From Rhodospirillaceae bacterium (lineage in GTDB: Bacteria > Pseudomonadota > Alphaproteobacteria > Bin65), in contig WTGH01000009.1 of NCBI GenBank assembly GCA_011523655.1, positions 35,151-99,150 on the forward strand: a stretch of 64,000 nucleotides of DNA, in the 5' to 3' direction. Every line of letters starts with the position of its first letter. Position 1 is the stretch's first letter. Positions 10,654-56,430 of this stretch are shown piece by piece. The position numbers and the translations under genes are program-made. The notes beneath the pieces were generated by a model. It was given only the letters and a program-made list of their open reading frames with translations. It searched no databases and was not told the origin of the DNA.

Positions 10654-10713
10654 GGCACTGTGCGAAGCCTCCGCAAAGGGTTTCCTTTACGAAAATCAGC
10701 AGGAATGCCCGGT

Positions 10714-10831
10714 CCCTCGATACGCCCCGGATTTGATCCGGGGCTACTCGGGATGAGGGCGTGTAACAAGTCCACTCCTCATTCACCCTCACCCTGAGTA
10801 GCCCCGGATTTAATCCGGGGCGTATCGAAGG
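10714..10831. repeat. Inverted pair of palindromic units (BIME/REP-like)
   Basis: CCTCGATACGCCCCGGATTTGATCCGGGGCTACTC (~10715-10749) and its near-perfect reverse complement GAGTAGCCCCGGATTTAATCCGGGGCGTATCGAAG (~10796-10830); each arm holds a CCCCGGATTNNATCCGGGG palindrome. Confidence 0.85.
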
Positions 10832-10867
10832 GGCGAACCAGAACAGGGCACTCCATCCAGGAGTCCA

Positions 10868-10930
10868 CTGCGAAAGGAGCATCGGCCGAATCCCCCTCCC
10901 CAAGGGTTTCCTCTGCGAAAAGGCGCACGG
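10868..10930. repeat. Short interspersed repeat unit (CCCCAAGGG[AT]TTCCTCTGCGAAAGG.GCA...CCGAATCCCCCTCC family)
   Basis: Same words recur at ~54770-54850 and, as CCTTTCGCAGAGGAATCC, at ~11583-11600, and at ~54911-54930. Confidence 0.75.
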
Positions 10931-11006
10931 CGGGCAACGCAATCCTGCGTGCCCTTCCATCCTTGCCGCCCTGCACCCCCATACGGCGGGCTCCGCCGGT
11001 CCGGTT

Positions 11007-11600
11007 TCAAAATAATTCCTTTTTTTCGATAATATTCCTTGACACGGCAGCTTCCGCGCCCTATATCGGCCCCGTCAACGCCCGAAGTGCGCCTGCCGCG
11101 GCCGGCCGACGCTCCTCCCGAAAGAAGCGAATGAAAAAACAGGTGGGAACCTGCCCGCTCTCCGGCCCGCCGCCGCCGGTCGGCCATCCGATCGCCCATC
11201 CAATGCGCCACCCTGCGCCATCCACTGCACCACGGGGCTTGACGGCCGGACCCCGTCCGGTTCGACCCTCCGATTCCGCCGGGCCATCCTGCCCCCGATT
11301 TTGGCCCCGATCCTGCCCGGCGGTGCCGTCCCCGGTGTCGACCGGCGCTTCCATTCGGCCGGGATGCTGGAAAAATTCCTATCGGGATTGATTTTGCACA
11401 TTTCCGAAAGGCGTCTTTCCAACGATTCCAAGGAGTTAGGGCTGCCAGGTGCAAAAAAACATGCTATTTAGAAAGGTCTGTCTAATGCCAAAAACAAAGC
11501 AATTTCAAAGACTTAGGGAAACTCAATTTGAACATTCGTTCAAAATCCGGCCGTTTTCCGGCGTCCGGCCCGTCCGGCACACCCTTTCGCAGAGGAATCC
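11007..11600 (+). repeat. ~0.6 kb promoter-bearing intergenic repeat, copy A (candidate ncRNA)
   Basis: Matches the reverse complement of ~54911-55517 over nearly its whole length; 54-nt perfectly shared block from the -10 onwards (CCCTATATCGGCCCCGTCAACGCCCGAAGTGCGCCTGCCGCGGCCGGCCGACGC). Confidence 0.85.
11039..11067 (+). promoter_or_regulatory. Sigma70-type promoter inside repeat copy A: TTGACA-N17-TATATC
   Basis: -35 at 11039-11044, 17-nt spacer, -10 at 11062-11067; both hexamers identical in copy B while three spacer positions differ. Confidence 0.75.
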
Positions 11601-11668
11601 CGTTGGGGGAGGGGGGGCGTCCGGGAGCGTTGACGCCTCGGAAACCGGACCGGGGCTGCCGTAATCCG

Positions 11669-13927
11669 CTATTCCGCAGCCGCCTTGGATACGTCGGCGA
11701 CGGGGTTGATCGCCGGCGCAACATAGGGGCTGGCGGTGGTTTGGTCGCCCTTTCCGCCGCCCGGCGGGGTCGCGGTGTAGTGGGCCGGGGCCGGCCCGCC
11801 GCGCTGCTTGCGCTCCCACGCTTCCGCCGGCGTCTCCAGCAGGGCCGCTGCCGCCAGCGCCGCCTTGCGGTCGACCGTATGGGGCGTCCCGGCGGCGTCG
11901 GGCGCCGGCATCATGTTGGCGTGGTAGTAGGCCATCTTCTGCTTGGCCGGATCGACGACGCGGGACGGGTCGATGTCGCGCCGGTTGGTGCCGACCCGCG
12001 GCTCGACGGCGATATCGTCGATGATCTCGTGGTCGAACCACCATTTCTTGACCGGATTGCGCGTGCCGTTGCCCAGCCAGTCGTCGGCCCAGGTGGCGAT
12101 CGGCACCATCAGCGGCTTGAGGAACATGGCGTTGACGCCCATCCAGCTCGCCGCGCGCGTCAGAAGCGGCCCGTCGGCGTCGATCACCTTGTTGATCGGG
12201 CAGGTCTTCATGCAGCGCCCGCAGGCCGCGCCCTTCATGTTGGTCAGGCGGTAGCGGGTGCAGCGCTCGGCGTCCGGCTTCCACATCTCGTAGCCGTTGA
12301 ACATCACCTTGTCGCCGAAGGGGATGGCGTCGCACGGGCATTCCCGGGCGCATTTCAGGCAGTTGTTGCAGAAATACTGGAGGCCGAAATCGATCGGCCT
12401 GTCGGGCTTGAGCGGCATGTCGGTGGTCAGCACGACCGACTTGAAGCGCGGGCCGACGAAGGGGTTGAGCACCAGTTCGCCGATCCGGCTCAATTCGCCC
12501 AGCCCGGCCCACAGGACCACCGGGATGTGCAGTACGTCGCTGTCCGCGTTGGTCTGGGAACGGGCCGGGAAGCCGAGGTCGCGGAGGAATTCGGCCATCA
12601 CCCCGGCGATCGCGGCGCCGCGCAGATAGGCGCGCATGGATTGCGTACCCGAGATCCAGTCGTCGCCGCTCGCACCCTCCATGGTGTCGAAGCCCTGGTC
12701 GATCAGCATGACGACGGCGTATTTGTGGTACGGCTCGATCGGCCGGCCGTCCTCCTTGTGGGAGAACCAGGCGTAGTGCGGGATCTCGCAGATGCCGGTG
12801 AGGTCGGAGCCGAGATGGTAGGACAGCGCCTTGATCGCCCTCGAGTTCGCTTCCGGGGCATTGGCTTCCGGATCGGCCAGGGCGTCCGGGCTGTCGGTAT
12901 CGACCGGCGCCGCCTCGCCGCCCTGGTGCGGCACCAGCGAGCGGATGACGCCGAGCAGGCCCTTGGACGTCGGGTGCTTGAAGGAGAAGCGCGAGCGCTC
13001 CTTCTGGGATTTCTCGCCCAGGTCGCCCTGCAGCGCGCGTTCGAAAAAGGCCGCCCGCTTCGGCACGCGCGGGACTTCGTCGTCCAGGATCAGGGTGGTC
13101 GGCCGGTCGACCCGCTTCACCTGCTCCATCGGATAGTAGCTCTCGTGGGACGGCCGGCGCGCGCGCCGGTTGCGCTCCCGGCCCGAGGTCGCGCCGTTCC
13201 GGCCCCACCAGTAGCCCAGGCCGCGCCCGTCCCGGGACGAGGCGGCGAGCGGCCGGTCGGTCGCCAGGGCGTAGTCCGTCGTGACGACGGCGAGCGAGAA
13301 GGCGGTATCGAGATAGGGGTTGACGAGATCCCCGTTCGAGCGGACGGCGAGGCCGGCCATCACGGCGAGCCGCTCGGCGTCGGTCCGCCGGTGCCCGGCC
13401 ACGTCGGCGCGGGCGGCGAAGCCCATCGCCCGGATGTGGCGCGCCACGCAGACCGCGATCTCGGCGGCCCGCATGTCCGACATCTCGCGCACTGCGGGCG
13501 CAACCCAGTCGTGGGCCGCATTGTGCGGCTCCGGCGCCCTGCCGTCTTCGATCAGCAGCACGACGGCGTGGCTGTGGGGCAGCGCTTCCGCACCCTCCAG
13601 CCAGGCGTTCGGCGCCATTTCGCAGATGCCGACCATGGCGGCGTCCATGAAATAGGCCATGCCCTTCGCATCGCGGGCGCGGGCTTCGAGATCGTCGGGG
13701 ACCGGCGCGCGGGCGGGCGCCGAATCCTGGTCGGCAGAGGCCGCGAAGATGTCCCGGTATTTCAGCGCCGCCGCCGCCATCGGGCCGTCGCCGGCCGTGT
13801 CATGCAGGCCCGCGCGGCGCGGCCGGTCCCGTTCCGCGGCCAGGATCGCGTCGTCCCGGGGCAGTGTCTCCAGCGGATAGGTGCCGAGCGAGAAGTCGCG
13901 GTCCCTGGAGCGGGGGTGAAGAAGCAT
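11669..13927 (-). CDS. Reductive dehalogenase (cytosolic, NpRdhA-like) with duplicated B12-binding-type modules
   Basis: Cluster CNNCLKCARECPCDAIPFG and C..YRLTNMKGAACGRCMKTCP; GICEIPHYAWFS and LVLNPFVGPRFKSVVLTTDMPL; no Tat signal visible; N-terminal half carries a second degenerate copy of the module. Confidence 0.8.
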   Translation of the reverse strand: MLLHPRSRDRDFSLGTYPLETLPRDDAILAAERDRPRRAGLHDTAGDGPMAAAALKYRDIFAASADQDSAPARAPVPDDLEARARDAKGMAYFMDAAMVGICEMAPNAWLEGAEALPHSHAVVLLIEDGRAPEPHNAAHDWVAPAVREMSDMRAAEIAVCVARHIRAMGFAARADVAGHRRTDAERLAVMAGLAVRSNGDLVNPYLDTAFSLAVVTTDYALATDRPLAASSRDGRGLGYWWGRNGATSGRERNRRARRPSHESYYPMEQVKRVDRPTTLILDDEVPRVPKRAAFFERALQGDLGEKSQKERSRFSFKHPTSKGLLGVIRSLVPHQGGEAAPVDTDSPDALADPEANAPEANSRAIKALSYHLGSDLTGICEIPHYAWFSHKEDGRPIEPYHKYAVVMLIDQGFDTMEGASGDDWISGTQSMRAYLRGAAIAGVMAEFLRDLGFPARSQTNADSDVLHIPVVLWAGLGELSRIGELVLNPFVGPRFKSVVLTTDMPLKPDRPIDFGLQYFCNNCLKCARECPCDAIPFGDKVMFNGYEMWKPDAERCTRYRLTNMKGAACGRCMKTCPINKVIDADGPLLTRAASWMGVNAMFLKPLMVPIATWADDWLGNGTRNPVKKWWFDHEIIDDIAVEPRVGTNRRDIDPSRVVDPAKQKMAYYHANMMPAPDAAGTPHTVDRKAALAAAALLETPAEAWERKQRGGPAPAHYTATPPGGGKGDQTTASPYVAPAINPVADVSKAAAE

Positions 13928-32044: not shown

Positions 32045-32149
32045 CGCCCCGGCCGTCTTGCCCTGCCGCGCCCGGCGGCTCTCGTCCCATTATGGAGCGC
32101 CGGGTGAATGCCGCAAGCGGGGAATGGCGCCGGCCGCGTTCGGTGGGGG

Positions 32150-32480
32150 GCTTCTGTTGCCCGGCGCCCCCCGGGCCGCGCTTTCCTAGAAGCTAGGCAG
32201 CGAGTGCCAAACGATCGTTGTCGTTAGCATTTGTGAATGTAGCCCGATAACGGTGGTACAATGCCGGGCGAAAAGCGAACCTTTTACTGCACGTCGATCC
32301 TGTTTCGCCCCCATGAAGGGCCGGGCCGTCGGCGGCGCGCGGGATGCAAACCCGCCCCTAAACCGCCGGGCCCGGCGAAACTGGTGGAGGCGCCGGGTAC
32401 TGCCCCCGGGTCCGCAACAGCTATTGCGCACGCCGTTTATCGCCATAGTCGCCCGAAGGCGACATTGCGAAGATAGGGCC
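32150..32480 (-). ncRNA. ssrA: Circularly permuted two-piece tmRNA (acceptor piece, IVS, coding piece); tag ANDNDRLALAA
   Basis: Minus strand: acceptor piece ends GGCGCCTCC-A-CCA (32382-32392); IVS ~32313-32381; coding piece starts GGGGGCGAAACAGGATCGACG (32312 downwards). Acceptor stem GGGGGCG/CGCCTCC pairs with G3.U70. Tag frame GCTAACGACAACGATCGTTTGGCACTCGCTGCCTAG at 32193-32228. Confidence 0.93.
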
Positions 32481-32583
32481 TCGCGGCGAATTTTGAAAGA
32501 GGGACGGGGCAGCGATACCCGGTGACGCGGCGGGAGCGAAACGCTAGTTTCGCCATCGAATGCGAACGTAACGATTGCCGAGA

Positions 32584-54764: not shown

Positions 54765-54850
54765 AACTTCCCCTTCCCCAAGGGATTCCTCTGCGAAAGG
54801 GGCACTGACCGAATCCCCCTCCTCTTGGGGGAGGGGTTAGGGGAGGGGTC
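54765..54850. repeat. Short interspersed repeat units (same family as 10868-10930)
   Basis: CTTCCCCAAGGGATTCCTCTGCGAAAGGGGCACTGACCGAATCCCCCTCC followed by CTTGGGGGAGGGG dyad. Confidence 0.75.
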
Positions 54851-54910
54851 GCCTGCCGCCGCGCCGATGTCGGAACCCGGCACCGCTCCGGCCGCCCCAT
54901 ACCCTTTAGG

Positions 54911-55517
54911 AATTCCTCTGCGAAAGGGTGTGCCGAACGGGCCGGACGCCGGAAAACGGCCGGATTTTGAATAAATGTTCAAAATCGGTTTGCCTAAGTC
55001 TTTGAAATCGCTCTGTTTTTGGAATTGGACAGACCGTTCTAAATAATATGTTTTTTTGCACCCGGCAGCCCTAACCCTTTGGAATCGTTGGAAACACGCC
55101 GTCCGGAAGTGCGCAAAAACACTCTCGGTAGGAATTTTTCCAGCTTCCCGGCCAGGCGGGAGCGCCGGTCGACACCGGGGGCGGCACCGCCGGGCAGGAT
55201 CGGGGCAGGATGGCCCGGCGGAATCGGAGGGTCGAGCCGGAGGGTCCAATCGGACGGGGTCCAGGCCGTCAAGCCCATTGGCGCATGGGGCGGCGCACAG
55301 GATGGCCGCCTGGCGGCGGCGGACCGGAGAGCGGGCCGGAAAGCGGGAAAGACGGAACGGTCCCGCACGGTCCTCCGCCGGTTTCTTCGTTTGCTCTTTT
55401 TTCGGGAGGGGCGTCGGCCGGCCGCGGCAGGCGCACTTCGGGCGTTGACGGGGCCGATATAGGGCACGGGATCTGCCGTGTCAAGGAATAATATCGAAAA
55501 AAAGGAAATTTTTTTGA
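54911..55517 (-). repeat. ~0.6 kb promoter-bearing intergenic repeat, copy B (inverted relative to copy A)
   Basis: Reverse complement matches 11007-11600, including CCAACGATTCCAA, GGTGCAAAAAAACAT and CCGGCCGTTTTCCGGCGTCCGGCCCG blocks. Confidence 0.85.
55456..55484 (-). promoter_or_regulatory. Sigma70-type promoter inside repeat copy B: TTGACA-N17-TATATC
   Basis: -35 at 55479-55484, -10 at 55456-55461 (complement), 17-nt spacer. Confidence 0.75.
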
Positions 55518-55590
55518 TGGCCGGCTCCGGTTCGCGCCGTTCGCAGAGAAGCCGCTTCGGCGGGGGAAGGATATGAGGCTGCCGGCAGGT

Positions 55591-56430
55591 TCAGGCGGCG
55601 GTCGCCGAGACGATCCAGCAGGCGCTGTCCAGGATCACCGCGCCGTTGCGCAGGTGTGGCACGAGGTCCTCCGCCAGTGCCGTCTCCGCCCGCTCGGCGA
55701 GATCGCCGCCGGCTTCGGCGAGCAGGGCCGCCCCCGGCCCCATCTGGAGCAGGAAGCGGGCGGCTTCGAGCGGCGTACCCGGCATTTCCAGCGCGATGTC
55801 GAGCGGCTCGAAGCGGCAGTCGCGCCAGCCGGCGCCCTCCAGCCAGCCGGTCGCCAGTTCGGCATCGGCCCACTGGAACTGGCTCGGCTCGCCCGGCGCC
55901 GGGCGCGGCGGCAGCTCGACGAAGGCCTTGGCCGCCGAAACCGGGATCATCACCCACGGGTTCTCCCGCGGCTCGCGCCAGACGATGAAGACCAGCCGCG
56001 CGCCCGGCCTGCACGCCCGGCGCAGGTTGGCGAGGGCGGCCGGCGTGTCGCGGAAGAACATGATGCCGAAGCGCGAGAACAGGATGTCGAACGTCTCGTC
56101 CCGAAACGCGTAGTCCTGGGCGTCGCCTTCCGCGAAGCACACATTCCTGCGCCCTTTCGCCCGTTGCCACGCCCGTTCGAGCAGGGGCGGCGACACGTCG
56201 ATGCCGGCGGCGGACCCGCTTTCGCCCGCAGCGTCGGCCAGCGCCAGCGTGGTCCCGGCCGCGCCGCAGCCGATGTCGAGACAATGCCTGCCGGCGATGT
56301 CGCCGAGCGCGGCCAGGCCGGCCTCGGTGAACGGCGTCATCATCCGCTCGATGCGGTCTTCGAGGCGCAGCCACTTGTGGCCCTGGGTGGTGGACCAGAA
56401 TTCGATCTGGTCCCGGTTCGCCTCCGCCAC
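55591..56430 (-). CDS. Class I SAM-dependent methyltransferase
   Basis: AGRHCLDIGCGAAGTTLALADAAG; FDILFSRFGIMFFRDTPAALANLRRACRPGARLVFIVWR. Confidence 0.92.
   Translation of the reverse strand: MAEANRDQIEFWSTTQGHKWLRLEDRIERMMTPFTEAGLAALGDIAGRHCLDIGCGAAGTTLALADAAGESGSAAGIDVSPPLLERAWQRAKGRRNVCFAEGDAQDYAFRDETFDILFSRFGIMFFRDTPAALANLRRACRPGARLVFIVWREPRENPWVMIPVSAAKAFVELPPRPAPGEPSQFQWADAELATGWLEGAGWRDCRFEPLDIALEMPGTPLEAARFLLQMGPGAALLAEAGGDLAERAETALAEDLVPHLRNGAVILDSACWIVSATAA

Follow-up and report, generated by a model that had tools for sequence, protein, structure and literature searches.

A MITE-like intergenic repeat family with a conserved promoter and leader in a Rhodospirillaceae bacterium

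Copies A and B and the family to which they belong

The window analysed here, a stretch of 64,000 nucleotides from the genome of a Rhodospirillaceae bacterium (G000), contains two copies of a non-coding repeat in opposite orientation, the second of them between an aldehyde dehydrogenase and a methyltransferase gene whose stop codons are 860 bp apart. In a global alignment of 10880-11680 (+) against 54820-55600 (-), copy A (11007-11600, +) matches copy B (54911-55517, -) end to end, from the A/T-rich block above the -35 hexamer to the CCCTTTCGCAGAGGAATCC end, and the likeness of the two is far above chance. An inverted second copy at ~54911-55517 had been proposed in the initial annotation, and the alignment confirms it over the whole interval, together with identical hexamers (TTGACA and TATATC) and a 17-nt spacer with three differences between A and B; the distal A7 tract, dyad and CCGGCCGTTTTCCGGCGTCCGG of copy A likewise lie where they had been placed (Table 1). 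Some details are in need of revision. The block described as 54 nt of perfect conservation from the -10 onwards is indeed identical and ~55 nt long, but it starts 4 nt before the -10, from which ~51 nt remain; the interval of copy A stands except for its 5' end, as the unit reaches at least to 10905, where a motif resembling a terminal inverted repeat (TIR) is found; and the repeat is real but does not consist of two copies, as ~24 are present in this genome.

Table 1. Coordinates of features of copies A and B in the window
Feature	Position	Strand	Basis
Copy A, whole unit between two terminal inverted-repeat-like motifs	10905..11600	+	TIR-like motifs; internal match to ~23 other copies
Copy A, left terminal motif GGTTTCCTCTGCGAAA, abutting CCCTCCCCAAG	10905..10920	+	mirrored at 11585-11600
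Copy A, right terminal motif GGATTCCTCTGCGAAA (inverted), followed by CGTTGGGGGAGGG	11585..11600	-	terminal motif search
Copy A, A/T-rich, UP-element-like block AAAATAATTCCTTTTTTTCGATAATATTCC above the -35	11009..11038	+	kept among copies
Copy A, -35 TTGACA	11039..11044	+	intact in 23/24 own-genome copies
Copy A, -10 TATATC	11062..11067	+	intact in 24/24 own-genome copies
Copy A, conserved leader GTCAACGCCCGAAGTGCGCC, predicted to be transcribed	11074..11093	+	also in second element family
Copy A, variable, indel-rich, non-coding middle	11094..11365	+	syntenic pairs; no open frame
Copy A, conserved 3' module, ending in A-tract and dyad AGAAAGGTCTGTC (11470-11482)	11366..11488	+	alignment of 50 copies
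Copy A, A7 tract	11453-11459	+	sequence
Copy A, TTTGAAC-N4-GTTCAAA dyad	11527..11544	+	sequence; aligned in copies
Copy A, CCGGCCGTTTTCCGGCGTCCGG	~11547-11568	+	sequence
Copy B, whole unit	54910..55553	-	terminal motifs 54910-54925 and degenerate 55539-55553
Copy B, -35 TTGACA	55479..55484	-	sequence, alignment with A
Copy B, -10 TATATC	55456..55461	-	sequence, alignment with A
Copy B, leader GTCAACGCCCGAAGTGCGCC	55430..55449	-	copy comparison
Copy B, 3' module with dyad AGAACGGTCTGTC (55028-55040)	55022..55144	-	alignment of copies, pattern search

A search of the source genome with copy A returned 38 matches, which resolve into these ~24 dispersed intergenic copies (best paralogues at E < 1e-160). 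Fifteen are near full length at 78-85% identity, one has an inserted middle, and shorter ones are missing the 3' dyad, or the middle as well, giving the family a size range of 0.4-0.75 kb. The modules follow a common order: the A/T-rich block, TTGACA-17-TATATC, the leader GTCAACGCCCGAAGTGCGCC, a GC-rich middle that varies between copies, and then a conserved 3' module that runs GGAAAATTTCCTA...TTTCCAACGATTCCAAAGGGTTAGGG...A-tract...AGAMCGGTCTGTC. The dyad of the 3' module, AGAAAGGTCTGTC in copy A, has the family form AGACCGGTCTGTC / AGAACGGTCTGTC, and the more distal GAAC/GTTC dyad occurs in some copies only. Two further loci, L060 (G000:C31) and L157 (G004, site A), hold the A-tract and AGACCGGTCTGTC module without the 5' cassette; both stretches also contain GAACATTATATGAAC, which resembles an alphaproteobacterial LexA box.

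Three genomes of the same genus (G001, G002 and G003) carry the family at 76-89% identity, and G001 and G002 each give 25-30 match segments. G004 and G005 contain diverged relatives together with a second family in which promoter and leader are alike and the body is different. The exact promoter-leader pattern occurs in six of seven genus genomes (20, 19, 9, 7, 7 and 2 matches; reversed control zero throughout) and is absent from four genomes from other genera of the family Rhodospirillaceae; one genus member, G006, is without the repeat family. By these genome searches the repeat family is restricted to the genus. The matching public records are titled Rhodospirillaceae or Alphaproteobacteria MAGs, one of them from Spongia, and by these titles the hosts are sponge-type Rhodospirillaceae MAGs. 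Members of the second family, with bodies marked by TTCAGGAAAACCGG... and AAGGATTATTATCCTT, are found at L056-L059 in G000 and at L061-L066, L201 and L211 in G004 and G005, and are often invaded by repeats bounded by GGATTCCTCTGCGAAA.

Nothing matching the element was returned by blastn against a plasmid collection, the exact promoter-leader pattern is absent from the viral contigs searched, and Rfam 15 yields nothing credible on either copy at gathering or relaxed thresholds. A named IS or MITE, or an rRNA leader, either of which would by the initial annotation have spoken against a new ncRNA, thus turned up neither in Rfam nor in the plasmid search. The sole credible Rfam match of the window lies elsewhere, at 32142-32502 (-), and is a full-length alphaproteobacterial (permuted) tmRNA (RF01849, 241 bits).

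A strong -35/-10 pair below an A/T-rich block is reminiscent of rRNA promoters, and the 5' stem of the second family, CGCCCG/CGGGCG, resembles a leader hairpin. The proposal that A and B are a duplicated rRNA-type promoter and leader would expect GTCAACGCCCG in the rRNA leaders of this species. The genus offers a single 16S upstream region, on one partial 16S contig of G006, a species without the family (the G000 MAG itself being without 16S), and that region has no such promoter and no such motif. Moreover, rRNA genes stand beside none of the copies examined, and the conserved 3' modules are unrelated to rRNA and without an Rfam match. An rRNA origin, although raised in the initial annotation, finds no support and is highly improbable.

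Insertion sites and element ends

A non-autonomous mobile repeat carrying a promoter had also been considered, and this reading is supported by the dispersal of the ~24 copies, by inverted terminal motifs and by an empty site B. In G001, G003, G004 and G005 the same two genes that flank copy B are adjacent, with the matched ends 32-187 bp apart, whereas the site is occupied in G002 as well as in G000; the simplest reading would place the insertion of copy B in the lineage shared by G000 and G002, after the species split. Site A is filled in G002, and the DNA found there in G001 and G004 is unrelated. In G001 this position (L156) holds two small genes, by eye PIN-domain toxin-antitoxin-like, where G000 and G002 carry copy A.

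The 16-bp motif GGATTCCTCTGCGAAA stands in inverted form at the two ends of copy A, as it does in several other copies, and is degenerate in copy B. At no more than one mismatch the genome has 52 occurrences (reversed control 0), typically between the C-rich CCCTCCCC and G-rich GGGGAGGG arms of a palindrome. The 5' flanks of several copies are different, and 200-bp elements of unrelated content are bounded by the motif too; many of the 52 motifs form inverted pairs spaced by ~200 bp, apparently a short repeat class in its own right. Tandem and nested GGATTCCTCTGCGAAA motifs with C-rich/G-rich palindromes are present in the window at 10679-10920 and 54783-54925, and the region between livM and copy A (10710-10850) contains an imperfect inverted repeat, CGATACGCCCCGGATTTGATCCGGGGCTACTC ... 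GAGTAGCCCCGGATTTAATCCGGGGCGTATCG, with similar ones in relatives.

No clean target-site duplication is seen at A or B, the flanks of the empty sites being too diverged for exact boundaries. IS110 and Y1/RAYT transposases are both absent from the G000 assembly (a MAG, also without 16S), and on that ground were rejected as mobilisers. The elements are short, have no coding capacity, are dispersed and are present or absent between relatives, as MITEs are; since neither a target duplication nor a transposase of these two families was found, the term 'MITE-like' is as far as the claim should go.

Constraint on promoter, leader and transcript

Selection was gauged by placing 15 G000 copies beside the copies at the same genes in the sister species G002 and pooling the substitutions. 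Over these 15 syntenic pairs the -35 is changed at 2/90 positions and the -10 at 0/90 (hexamers together 2/180), and the 20-nt leader at 4/300, against 56/255 in the 17-nt spacer. The A/T-rich upstream block is changed at 87/673 positions (12.9%), the middle at 510/3148 (16.2%, with 554 gap columns) and the 3' module at 132/1219, its A-tract/dyad block at 13.1%; Fisher tests on the syntenic-pair counts gave p values of 3e-12 and 7e-17. Base composition is no explanation, because the upstream block is just as A/T-rich and the middle just as GC-rich, and both drift. Neighbouring genes of G000 and G002 differ at 427/4439 four-fold sites (9.6%) and at 2.7% and 2.2% of codon positions 1 and 2. Neutral decay would be expected to produce ~17 changes in the hexamers and 29 in the leader, and 2 and 4 are observed (Poisson 5e-6 and 1e-8).

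This rate comparison is complicated by exchange between copies: the syntenic copy is its partner's best match in only five of the 15 pairs and many elements diverge beyond four-fold sites, so there is recombination between copies or replacement of one by another. The five best-match pairs have less power and point the same way (hexamers 2/60, leader 2/100, spacer 13/85, rest 193/2383). Overwriting from a master copy would have reset the spacer too, and no such reset is observed. The substitution pattern thus indicates that the promoter hexamers and the leader are under purifying selection at many copies, which in turn would imply transcription; constrained hexamers around a free spacer are the signature expected of a working promoter, and the promoter probably fires.

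This constraint bears on whether the elements serve only themselves. A purely selfish MITE-like repeat, in which promoter and leader would aid mobilisation alone, for example as a binding or transcription signal read by an unseen transposition machinery, and be of no use to the host, would be in keeping with the mobility, the inverted terminal motifs, the frequent replacement or recombination of copies and a mostly intergenic location, often at convergent spots where little harm is done. However, a resting selfish copy should lose its hexamers and leader at the neutral rate, and in copies that occupy the same site in two species these are the parts that stay unchanged as the rest drifts. A wholly selfish repeat is therefore regarded as unlikely.

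With regard to the product of the promoter, the earlier impression that the repeat is non-coding was well founded: of the 591 pairwise indels among 13 full-length copies, 450 (76%) have lengths that three does not divide, no frame runs open through the copies, and a protein-coding reading is ruled out by indels and stops. The proposal of an independently transcribed ncRNA gains indirect support from the constrained hexamers and 20-nt leader and from the missing coding frame; covariation is weak. The constrained leader starts about where the predicted RNA would start, and copy A has no intrinsic terminator on its + strand. Whole predicted transcripts of the two copies are modestly more stable in folding than shuffled sequences (z -2.2 and -1.9). 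In the leader of the second family a CGCCCG/CGGGCG hairpin has 99% of cells paired and an invariant outer stem; its covariation amounts to one compensated pair, a level reached by 34/500 shuffles and hence at the edge of noise, and the first family is without the CGGGCG partner.

Consensus folding of the 3' module gives no convincing RNA structure (-4.7 kcal/mol), and a structured 3' module was rejected on this ground. As the dyad nevertheless keeps its palindromic symmetry, the 3' dyad and A-tract (AGACCGGTCTGTC) are more likely a protein-binding DNA site than an RNA stem. It could be argued from this that the elements act as DNA altogether, with promoter, A-tract and AGACCGGTCT dyad as protein-binding or chromosome-organising sites and the RNA as a by-product. 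The unstructured 3' module, the paired changes through which dyad symmetry is kept (AGACCGGTCT, AGAACGTTCT) and the occurrence of A-tract and dyad without the 5' module (L060; G004 at site A) would agree with such a role, yet the strongest constraint falls on the hexamers and leader and not on the dyad, with its block at 13.1%, and short variants do without the dyad entirely. A role as DNA only is accordingly quite improbable. Driving the downstream gene was likewise discarded as a general role, because an ORF heuristic puts the gene that follows the promoter on the other strand in roughly two thirds of copies. Copies are often found between convergent genes.

A mobile repeat with a putative non-coding RNA

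The mobile-repeat and ncRNA readings are mutually compatible. We consider it fairly probable that A and B belong to a MITE-like non-autonomous repeat with a selected sigma-70-type promoter and a non-coding transcript that the cell would put to use. The family would insert between genes, often into short CCCTCCCC...GGGGAGGG palindromes, and a transposase supplied from elsewhere may move the elements. The strong sigma-70-type promoter of each copy would transcribe across the element to yield a non-coding RNA, the constrained part of which would be the 20-nt leader at its 5' end, and which would end within or near the element. Selection would then reflect the use that the cell makes of this RNA or of its transcription, and the pattern of constraint suggests that copies make a useful RNA. 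A bolder and rather doubtful extension is that of a bacterial counterpart of SINEs: mobile ncRNA genes in which one promoter-leader cassette is selected at dozens of loci as the bodies change, the host having recruited most copies as related regulatory RNAs.

Promoter-bearing MITEs are already known. The Correia repeat enclosed elements of Neisseria are 204 bp long and lie mostly just upstream of genes (PMC10969869). QMITE1 and QMITE2 of Coxiella burnetii comprise ~50 copies, with QMITE1 at 0.3-0.4 kb; their positions are kept between strains, and some copies are transcribed as sRNAs, being the source of CbsR3, CbsR13 and CbsR16 (PMC5896051). For these sRNAs the promoter is located upstream of the QMITE1 insert or is supplied only in part by QMITE2, and QMITE1 copies encode DUF1658 proteins (PMC5896051). 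Compared by description, the present family resembles the Correia elements in its dispersed intergenic non-coding repeats with inverted ends and strong sigma-70-like promoters, and differs in its size of 0.4-0.75 kb, its frequent position between convergent genes and a common 20-nt leader that is predicted to be transcribed. With the QMITEs it shares multicopy repeats at positions conserved between relatives; unlike them, again by description, it has a full, selectively maintained promoter inside every copy and no DUF1658 proteins. By analogy the element may work like the Correia and QMITE repeats, and membership in neither is claimed, as sizes and modules differ. A tie to short C-rich/G-rich palindromic repeats is also seen in the REP/REPIN system (RAYT, Y1) and in IS110/IS1111 elements that insert into REP palindromes; here, in contrast, the assembly contains no Y1 or IS110 transposase and a promoter is carried. 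REPINs are, moreover, far shorter than these units.

What seems to be new is a complete internal promoter and leader selected at many insertions, and the use of one cassette in front of different bodies. MITEs with promoters have usually been viewed as parasitic, their promoters gaining importance through chance of location. With the rate comparison, the idea that a mobile repeat family has turned into a group of functional ncRNA genes can be put to the test, and scoring hexamers against spacer in syntenic copies is a recipe that can be applied to other intergenic repeats. With regard to the source of the promoter-leader cassette, a phage origin is possible. At L119 (G001:C55) the same promoter-leader stands at position 1554 and precedes by ~0.4 kb a gene for a phage head-tail connector (PF12236, E 1e-83).
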